A DNA stretch of 64,000 nt from positions 1 to 64,000 of the forward strand of contig CAIMZI010000079.1 of NCBI GenBank assembly GCA_903845935.1, read 5' to 3'. This stretch comes from an uncultured beta proteobacterium. GTDB taxonomy: Bacteria > Pseudomonadota > Gammaproteobacteria > Burkholderiales > Burkholderiaceae_C. Made by a program: the position numbers and the translations under genes. Shown here piece after piece: positions 56,401 to 59,059 of the stretch. A model generated the notes under the pieces. The model made no database searches and had not been told where the DNA came from. It worked only from the letters and a program-made list of their open reading frames with translations. Within the stretch, counting starts at the first letter, position 1, and each line of letters starts with the position of its first letter.

Positions 56401-56485
56401 AGAGTCTCCTAGTTTGGTGCGCGTGCAATGTAGCGGTTACAGGTGCGTAAGGGTGTGTAAGGTGGCCAGCGGTCGAATGGCGGTT

Positions 56486-56514
56486 TAAGCGGTGTTTGGG
56501 CTAGCGTTAGCGGT
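56486..56514 (-). promoter_or_regulatory. BtsR (YehT)-type binding site upstream of cstA
   Basis: On the minus strand the sequence reads ACCGCTAA, 13 bases, ACCGCTTA. This matches the reported E. coli BtsR site in front of btsT/yjiY, ACC(G/A)CT(C/T)A-N13-ACC(G/A)CT(C/T)A, except for one base in the first half. Further ACCGC half-sites follow towards cstA. It lies 86-114 bases upstream of the cstA ATG. Confidence 0.75.
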
Positions 56515-56636
56515 GCATGGTAGGCACCTGAATTGCTCGGTTATTGATATTTTTCCAACTTGGAGCCAAGACACTTCTGGGCTCAAGATGAGACGCGCGC
56601 GTGCAATATTTGGTATTCGGTCATCGCGTGCCCAAT

Positions 56637-57359
56637 TCAGCCAATCAACAACCGGTCCTTCATTTCGCGCAGATAGCGGCGGCTCACCGGCAGGCGCTTG
56701 CCGCTGCGGGTGACGATTTCGGCCGCGCCGTTATCCAGCAGCCCGATCTCGGCAATCTGGTCGGTGTTCACCAGGTACTGCCGGTGGCAGCGCAACAGCG
56801 GGGTGCGCTCCTGCAGGATTTTTAGCGTGAGCTCGGTCGTGCCCTGGCGCTCAGGCCCCACCACCTGCACGCCGGCCACATCGGTGTACACATATTCCAC
56901 CTCGGCCAGTCCGAGCAGAAAAATCTTGCTGCGACCTATGCAGGGAATCTGGCGTAGCGGCTCGGCCCAGGCCATGGTGGGCAGCAACTGGCTGGGCGCG
57001 CGGGCGCCGCTGCGCAGCCAGTTTAGAGTCTTAGCCAGGCGCTGCGGGTCAATCGGCTTGAGCAGATAGTCGGTGGCATGCTCCTCAAACGCCTGGAGGG
57101 CGTGCTCGTCATGTGCGGTGACAAACACGATGTGTGGCAGGGCCGCAGGGTCAATCATGCCGGCCATTTCCAGTCCGCTCAGGCGCGGCATCTGGATGTC
57201 CAGAAACACCACCTGTGGGCGCAGCCGGTGGATGGCCGCCAGGCCTTCAATCGCGTTTGAACATTCGCCCAGCACCTCCACATCGGGCTCGGCCGACAGC
57301 AGCGCCCGCAGCTCCTCGCGCGAGGGTGCTTCGTCGTCAATGATCAGGGCGCTCAGCAT
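56637..57359 (-). CDS. btsR: LytTR response regulator BtsR
   Basis: A 240-aa response regulator. The receiver domain has ALIIDDEAPSRE, the phospho-acceptor Asp in VVFLDIQMPRLSG, the Thr in FVTAHD and the Lys in LLKPID. The LytTR DNA-binding domain follows (RSKIFLLGLAEVEYVYTD, LLRCHRQYLVNTDQI, LPVSRRYL). It is the partner of BtsS, overlapping its gene by 7 bases. The tracked 57587 start reads into btsS; ATG 57359 is correct by homology. A matching binding site precedes cstA downstream. Confidence 0.93.
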   Translation of the reverse strand: MLSALIIDDEAPSREELRALLSAEPDVEVLGECSNAIEGLAAIHRLRPQVVFLDIQMPRLSGLEMAGMIDPAALPHIVFVTAHDEHALQAFEEHATDYLLKPIDPQRLAKTLNWLRSGARAPSQLLPTMAWAEPLRQIPCIGRSKIFLLGLAEVEYVYTDVAGVQVVGPERQGTTELTLKILQERTPLLRCHRQYLVNTDQIAEIGLLDNGAAEIVTRSGKRLPVSRRYLREMKDRLLIG

Positions 57360-59059
57360 GGCACCACCTCTGGCTCCAGCGGCAGCGCAATCGCCACTCG
57401 GGTGAATCGCTCGGGCTCGAACGTGACCTGCACGCCGAAGGCCTCGCCATAGCGCAGCTTGATGCGCCGGTCCACCAAGTTCATGCCCAGGCCGTCGCTG
57501 CCGTGCTTTGGCTGGTACAGGCCCGCGCTGTCTTCCACGGTGACGGTCAGTAGCCCGTCGCTGCGCGCTGCACGAATAGTGATACATCCCGGCTCCAGCA
57601 TCTGCGAGATGCCGTGCTTGATAGCGTTCTCCACAATCGGCTGCAGCGAGAAGGCGGGCAGGTGAAGGCCCAGCAGCTCTGGCGCGATCGCAATGCGTAC
57701 GCGCAGGCGCTCGGCAAAGCGCGCCAGCTCGATGTTGAGGTAGGCGTTGACGTGCTCCACCTCATCGGCCAGCGTCACGTCATTGCCGGTGCGCTTGAGG
57801 CTCTTGCGGAAGAAAGTGGACAGGTACTGCACCAGTTGGCGCGCTTCCTCGGGTTTGCTGCGAATCACCGCGGCCAGGGTGTTGAGCGCGTTGAACAAGA
57901 AATGCGGGTCGATCTGCGCCTGCAGCAGCTTGATTTCGGACTGCACCAGCAGGCGCTTTTGCTCCTCGATCTTGCCGGCCAGCACCTGGTTGGAAATCAG
58001 CCGGGCAATACCCTCGCCTAGGGTGCGGTTGAGGGTCGAGAAGAATTTGGACTTGGGCTCGTACAGCTTGATGGTGCCAAATACCACATTGCCCTCGCCG
58101 CGCAGCGGTATCACCAGGCAGGAGCCTAATCTACAGTCCTTGTGCAGCGAGCAGCGGTAGGGCCTGCTGACGCCATCGGCGTAGACCACTGCGTTTTGGT
58201 GGATGGCGGCCAGCGTGTGCGGCGATGAAATCGGCGTGCCGCTCAGGTGGTGGTCTGAGCCTGTGCCGACAAAGCCGAGCAGCTTCTCGCAATCGGTAAT
58301 GGCTACTGCGCCCACGCCGGTCTCCTCCTGAATGATGCTGGCTAGGTGGCTGCAGTTCCGCGTGTTGAAGCCCTGCATCATCACGCCCACCGAGCGCTCG
58401 GCAATGCGCAGGGCCTTGGCTGAAAAGGCGATCGAATACTTTTCCAGCGTCTCGCGCCGGTCCAAGATCAGGCGCATGAACAGAGCTGCGCCAAACGAGT
58501 TGGTCAGCACCATGGGCAGGGTGATCTGGGCCACCAGGCGTGCCGCCTGATCGCTGGGCTTGGCCAGCAGCAGAATGATGAGCATCTGCGCGATCTCGGC
58601 CACCAGCGTAGTGCCAAAGGCAATCGAGGGCTTAAGCAGTCGGTCGGCCTGGTGGCGGCGCATCAGGATCAGGTGCAGGGCACCGCCAATGAGGCCCTCG
58701 GTCACGGTGGATACGGCGCAGGCCGTGGCCGAGAAGCCGCCTAGGGAATAGCGGTGCATGCCGCCGGTCAGCCCCACGGCCAGTCCCACCACCGGCCCAC
58801 CCAGCAGCCCGCCCAGAACGGCGCCAATGGCGCGGGTATTGGCAATCGCTCCTTCGATGTTAAAGCCCAAGTAGGTGCCCATGATGCAAAAGCCGGAGAA
58901 CACCAGATAGCAGACCAGCTTGTCGGGCAGGCGCACGGTCACCTGCATCAGCGGCGCAAACAGCGGCGTCTTGCTCAGCAGATACGCCACTACCAGATAT
59001 ACGCACATCTGCTGCATCAGCTCGCCGATCAGGGCGAGGTGGTTGATCTGCTCAAACAT
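57353..59059 (-). CDS. btsS: LytS-type histidine kinase BtsS (pyruvate sensor)
   Basis: A 568-aa sensor kinase. A six-helix 5TM-LYT domain (residues about 10-200) is followed by a GAF domain (about 225-360) and a His_kinase domain with the phospho-His in QIDPHFLFNALNTL and a GHKL ATPase with IVENAIKHGI and GLGMNLV. The four pyruvate-binding residues reported for E. coli BtsS (R72, R99, C110, S113) align here as R76, R103, C114 and S117 with identical spacing. It begins 6 bases after rlhA and overlaps btsR. Confidence 0.94.
   Translation of the reverse strand: MFEQINHLALIGELMQQMCVYLVVAYLLSKTPLFAPLMQVTVRLPDKLVCYLVFSGFCIMGTYLGFNIEGAIANTRAIGAVLGGLLGGPVVGLAVGLTGGMHRYSLGGFSATACAVSTVTEGLIGGALHLILMRRHQADRLLKPSIAFGTTLVAEIAQMLIILLLAKPSDQAARLVAQITLPMVLTNSFGAALFMRLILDRRETLEKYSIAFSAKALRIAERSVGVMMQGFNTRNCSHLASIIQEETGVGAVAITDCEKLLGFVGTGSDHHLSGTPISSPHTLAAIHQNAVVYADGVSRPYRCSLHKDCRLGSCLVIPLRGEGNVVFGTIKLYEPKSKFFSTLNRTLGEGIARLISNQVLAGKIEEQKRLLVQSEIKLLQAQIDPHFLFNALNTLAAVIRSKPEEARQLVQYLSTFFRKSLKRTGNDVTLADEVEHVNAYLNIELARFAERLRVRIAIAPELLGLHLPAFSLQPIVENAIKHGISQMLEPGCITIRAARSDGLLTVTVEDSAGLYQPKHGSDGLGMNLVDRRIKLRYGEAFGVQVTFEPERFTRVAIALPLEPEVVPC

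Follow-up and report, generated by a model that had tools for sequence, protein, structure and literature searches.

A BtsSR-type operon with a putative phased array of BtsR half-sites upstream of cstA in an uncultured betaproteobacterium

The window analyzed here, a 64,000-nucleotide stretch from an uncultured betaproteobacterium (contig CAIMZI010000079.1), probably contains a self-contained BtsSR-type pyruvate-uptake operon in which the BtsR operator is a phased array of at least three boxes; judging from its sequence, we put the probability of this reading at roughly 0.8. Among bacterial pyruvate sensors BtsSR has been studied well, and BtsR serves as a model for LytTR proteins. The module adds a further member to this known system, and it is the phased multi-box operator that may be of wider interest. 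The original prediction, which held that a BtsSR-type circuit was preserved here together with its DNA motif and a CstA-type target, is partly supported and largely right: the system and a BtsR-like operator upstream of a CstA-type gene are present, but the site is a three-box array rather than a two-box one.

The btsSR-cstA module

The genes encoding the sensor, the regulator and the transporter adjoin one another on the minus strand, with the 29-bp site proposed earlier lying among them (Table 1). The btsR and btsS genes overlap by 7 bases, the 236-bp gap between btsR and cstA holds the putative operator, and a ybdD/yjiX homologue is located directly after cstA. The contiguity of sensor, regulator, site and transporter was thus correctly described, as was the separation of btsSR from btsT in E. 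coli, where the distance is approximately 2.4 Mb. The implied novelty of the arrangement does not hold, however. Outside E. coli, btsSR is commonly adjacent to the gene for its transporter, and a CstA-family gene is its neighbor in Tolumonas, Azospirillum, Chromobacteriaceae, Rhodocyclaceae, Dickeya and elsewhere. The CstA family also includes BtsT (PMC7730263). Since the targets belong to the CstA superfamily, with the subfamily varying by lineage, neither the contiguity nor the CstA-type target is unusual.

Table 1. Genes and putative BtsR half-sites of the module, in positions of the window
Feature	Position	Strand	Basis
btsS, LytS-type sensor histidine kinase, 568 aa	57353-59059	minus	ORF, Pfam, residues, tree
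btsR, LytTR response regulator, 240 aa	56637-57359	minus	NCBIfam BtsR equivalog
Putative BtsR half-site 1, ACCGCTAA	56507-56514	minus	Pattern match, comparison with relatives
Putative BtsR half-site 2, ACCGCTTA, 21 bp after box 1	56486-56493	minus	Pattern match, comparison with relatives
Putative BtsR half-site 3, ACCGCTGG, 20 bp after box 2	56466-56473	minus	Comparison with relatives; missed by the original prediction
cstA, CstA-subfamily transporter, 687 aa	54337-56400	minus	PF02554, NF011590
ybdD/yjiX-like PF04328 gene, ~71 aa	54120-54335	minus	PF04328; tblastn to E. coli YjiX and YbdD

BtsR scores 352.9 bits, well above the cut-off of 246 for the NCBIfam BtsR equivalog. BtsS is 60% identical to its E. 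coli counterpart and has the Pfam domain order 5TMR_LYT, GAF, His_kinase, HATPase, in which the GAF and HATPase domains are in place but below gathering scores; H386 aligns with E. coli H382. In a quick tree the kinase falls inside the BtsS set, beside the BtsS proteins of Rhodoferax, Comamonadaceae and Propionivibrio, which are also the best named relatives, while PyrS forms a long and clearly separate branch far from it. With a kinase outside PyrS and boxes of the form RCCRCT, the module does not belong with PyrS/PyrR. As predicted, R76, R103, C114 and S117 align with R72, R99, C110 and S113, which form the site that binds pyruvate in E. coli BtsS (PMC10653868). All four are common to nearly all BtsS proteins and three of them are also present in PyrS, so that their retention is supportive rather than discriminating.

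Some divergent relatives were also encountered. A second BtsS-like kinase (L026:8396-10048, in a genome shared with L024) has three of the four residues changed (R to P, C to A and S to D), which suggests a different ligand. In Yersinia, Serratia, Samsonia and Brenneria, a BtsR-like regulator that is 55-59% identical to BtsR from the window occurs with no BtsS nearby (L031:9977-10717, L044:9962-10717, and also L032-L036, L039 and L041). In the two loci that were read, L031 and L044, it is located beside tyrA- and aroF-looking genes, and in Yersinia rohdei it is followed by a DcuC-like gene.

The putative operator in the window and in E. coli

The 29-bp site predicted upstream of cstA, ACCGCTAA-N13-ACCGCTTA, is present on the minus strand at 56486-56514. 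It differs at one position from ACC[AG]CT[CT]A-N13-ACC[AG]CT[CT]A, taken as the BtsR consensus. In a pattern search the pair has no mismatches and is the only match in the window at up to two mismatches, a level at which approximately 0.9 per window would be expected by chance. The third box was first seen by looking at relatives; the three half-sites are in phase, with start-to-start distances of 21 and 20 bp, and box 3 lies 65 bases from the cstA start codon. It had been proposed that motif and spacer match those of E. coli exactly apart from one position. One position does differ, but the match in spacer is partly a coincidence of register, because the published E. coli pair is made up of boxes 2-3 of a 20/21 array and the pair in the window of boxes 1-2 of a 21/20 array.

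The array upstream of cstA is the sole exact 21/20 triple in the 3.9-Mb genome, and a pattern scan found one exact 20/20 match on another contig. A wide regulon in this genome was considered and rejected: the other matches carry mismatches and are no more numerous than those of a reversed-pattern control. Autoregulation of btsS was likewise rejected, as just one isolated box is located upstream of that gene, and a possible fourth box at 56432-56437, 36 bp from box 3 and out of phase, was left uncounted. No sigma-70-like promoter was recognized downstream of the array, a result compatible with an activator-dependent promoter, and a search across arrays for a conserved -10 element anchored on box 3 gave no clear signal.

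As published, the E. coli motif consists of two half-sites separated by N13 (PMC5552118, PMC4847170), and descriptions of LytTR operators give two repeats, with spacers of 11-13 bp (PMC4847170). Analysis of the sequence upstream of E. coli btsT nonetheless finds three in-phase boxes and a weaker fourth: GCCGCTCA is located 20 bp before the published pair, ACCGCTTA and ACCACTCA, and the weaker GTCACTTA a further 20 bp before GCCGCTCA. The yjiY DNA used in earlier binding work includes the third box (PMC4847170). This E. coli system (BtsS/BtsR-btsT, or YehU/YehT-yjiY) has the same sensor and regulator family, the same half-site sequence and a CstA-family target followed by a PF04328 gene. It differs from the module in the window, whose CstA-subfamily target adjoins btsSR and whose spacing is 21/20 rather than 20/21.

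Vibrio BtsSR likewise has an RCCRCT array upstream of a CstA-superfamily gene, but the boxes there number 3-10 and mostly recur every 20 bp, and the 494-aa transporter, presumably BtsU, belongs to a much shorter subfamily. E. coli CstA is of the same subfamily as CstA from the window, and its gene is also followed by a PF04328 gene; unlike cstA in the window, however, it has no array upstream, and it is described as controlled by CRP and Fis independently of BtsSR (PMC7730263). E. coli PyrS/PyrR-yhjX (YpdA/YpdB) is also a LytS/LytTR pyruvate system with direct repeats approximately 21 bp apart, but it differs in its box sequence (GGCATTTCAT), its MFS target and its separate kinase branch. It may be that the multi-box layout extends to PyrR: the E. 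coli yhjX promoter DNA (PMC4847170) carries a degenerate third copy, CGTCATTCAT (6/10), one period upstream of the two PyrR (YpdB) repeats. A literature search, which did not include the original E. coli (2012 YehU/YehT) and 2021 Vibrio campbellii papers, returned no description of three or more BtsR boxes or of a betaproteobacterial BtsSR-cstA operon, so priority is uncertain.

Arrays across lineages

Promoter regions of CstA-superfamily genes, with few exceptions from alpha-, beta- and gammaproteobacteria that have BtsR, were scored for RCCRCT triples at 20 or 21 bp, with at least 16/18 counted as positive; promoters of one lineage are not independent of each other. Triples are present in 38 of 41 BtsR-type target promoters (6/6 btsSR-linked cstA, 20/20 btsT-type and 12/15 short CstA-like promoters), as against 1 of 26 cstA promoters unlinked to btsSR, which are mostly paralogues within the same BtsR genomes. 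The motif sought upstream of orthologous cstA genes is thus found wherever btsSR-linked cstA was examined and is absent from nearly all unlinked copies. For each of the 38 target promoters, the score was reached by at most 1 in 200 shuffles. The sole unlinked positive is the cstA of Formivibrio (L161), which has a 17/18 array at 20/20 spacing in a genome with BtsR; since this array lies away from btsSR, two BtsR targets may exist in that genome.

Distances between perfect half-sites cluster at 20 bp (n=33), 21 bp (n=32) and 40-42 bp (n=35), with 0-2 at each other value. The half-sites are directional (140 on the sense strand versus 19 on the opposite strand), and all four combinations of 20- and 21-bp spacing occur. 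Arrays precede CstA-subfamily genes in the window, in other Comamonadaceae and in two genomes of another family of the same order; BtsT genes in Enterobacterales; CstA-like genes of approximately 600 aa in Tolumonas, Azospirillum, Chromobacteriaceae and Rhodocyclaceae; and CstA-like genes of 484-494 aa in Propionivibrio and in Vibrionaceae. They also occur in Serratia genomes and in one Aeromonadaceae genome, some with mixed spacing or degenerate boxes. Conservation of the motif had previously been examined in gammaproteobacteria, and the motif was considered missing in Serratia marcescens and Aeromonas hydrophila (PMC5552118). A class-wide pattern scan of 369 sampled genomes was uninformative, because few of them have a close BtsR and many of the matches are simple tandem repeats.

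It is conceivable, if rather unlikely, that BtsR occupies just two boxes, and that the third is a spare or alternative register (1-2 or 2-3) selected for fine-tuning and not occupied at the same time. The published pair would be in line with this, as would the variation of both intervals between 20 and 21 bp and the sequential binding of two sites by the LytTR regulator YpdB (PMC4847170). However, the CC and CT core is equally invariant in all three boxes (39 arrays), and the up to ten in-phase boxes of Vibrionaceae would be hard to reconcile with a single dimer.

Function, distribution and significance

As read from gene order, protein families, sensor residues and the array with its conservation and specificity, the most likely function of the module is pyruvate-induced transcription of cstA by BtsR along the array. 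In both E. coli and Salmonella, BtsSR is pyruvate-responsive and acts as an inducer of btsT (PMC5431176, PMC9504724). External pyruvate would be sensed by the membrane domain of BtsS, which would then phosphorylate BtsR. BtsR would assemble on the three direct-repeat half-sites upstream of cstA, on one face of the DNA and two helical turns apart, and would activate cstA-ybdD, the product of which would import pyruvate. More generally, the BtsR operator would be a helically phased tandem RCCRCT array with a period of 20-21 bp and a minimum of three boxes (as many as ten in Vibrionaceae), and this array would stay with BtsR while the transporter subfamily that it drives changes between lineages. 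It is an evenly poised possibility that binding of BtsR goes beyond a simple pair, with cooperative assembly along 3-10 phased boxes on one face of the helix in an array whose length sets how steep or how strong the pyruvate response is, and that the operator is portable, keeping its regulator and swapping its CstA-superfamily transporter.

CstA from the window scores 857 bits against PF02554 and shares 70% identity with E. coli CstA and 64% with BtsT; it is thus not closer to BtsT. It seems distinctly improbable that this circuit, while BtsSR-like, has a different input (a pyruvate-like ligand such as lactate) or that CstA has a different output, such as peptides. The presence of most of the sensor residues in PyrS as well means that specificity is not fixed by them, CstA was originally described as a peptide transporter, and the score against the NF011590 equivalog (1144.5 bits) is slightly below the cut-off of 1188. 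Against this, all four residues are identical to those of the E. coli pyruvate site (PMC10653868), both E. coli CstA and BtsT carry pyruvate (PMC7730263), and the linked target in the loci examined is always of the CstA superfamily. A chance or compositional origin of the repeats, with no part in regulation, has a negligible probability: a two-box pattern with two mismatches is indeed expected about once per window, but the single exact 21/20 triple in the genome, the shuffles, the sharp distance spectrum and the near absence of arrays from unlinked cstA controls contradict it.

The module is rare in its genus: of 103 genomes, two have BtsS and three have cstA. Both genomes with BtsS carry the array, and the third cstA genome, without BtsS, has none. 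No shared neighbors were found among those tested for the two modules. In the other same-genus genome (L021:7430-11900), approximately 4.5 kb separate btsR from cstA, with the array remaining on the cstA side; this interval contains genes for a pyridoxal-phosphate-type enzyme, a secreted hydrolase-like protein and a lipoprotein-like gene. A sample of 400 genomes from the family yielded, besides the match of the window itself, only a single distant one, at 41% identity. Rarity within the genus and the two different contexts make the module look horizontally moved, and the pattern fits a rarely acquired, mobile module.

An operator with three or more phased boxes, such as the one at E. coli btsT, would call for a different model of BtsR binding and, if true, would depart from the two-repeat rule for LytTR regulators. 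The arrays could also bear on the published absence of the motif from Serratia marcescens and Aeromonas hydrophila (PMC5552118). As a genomic marker for BtsR targets the array is sensitive, and it shows a single switch attached to different transporter subfamilies.
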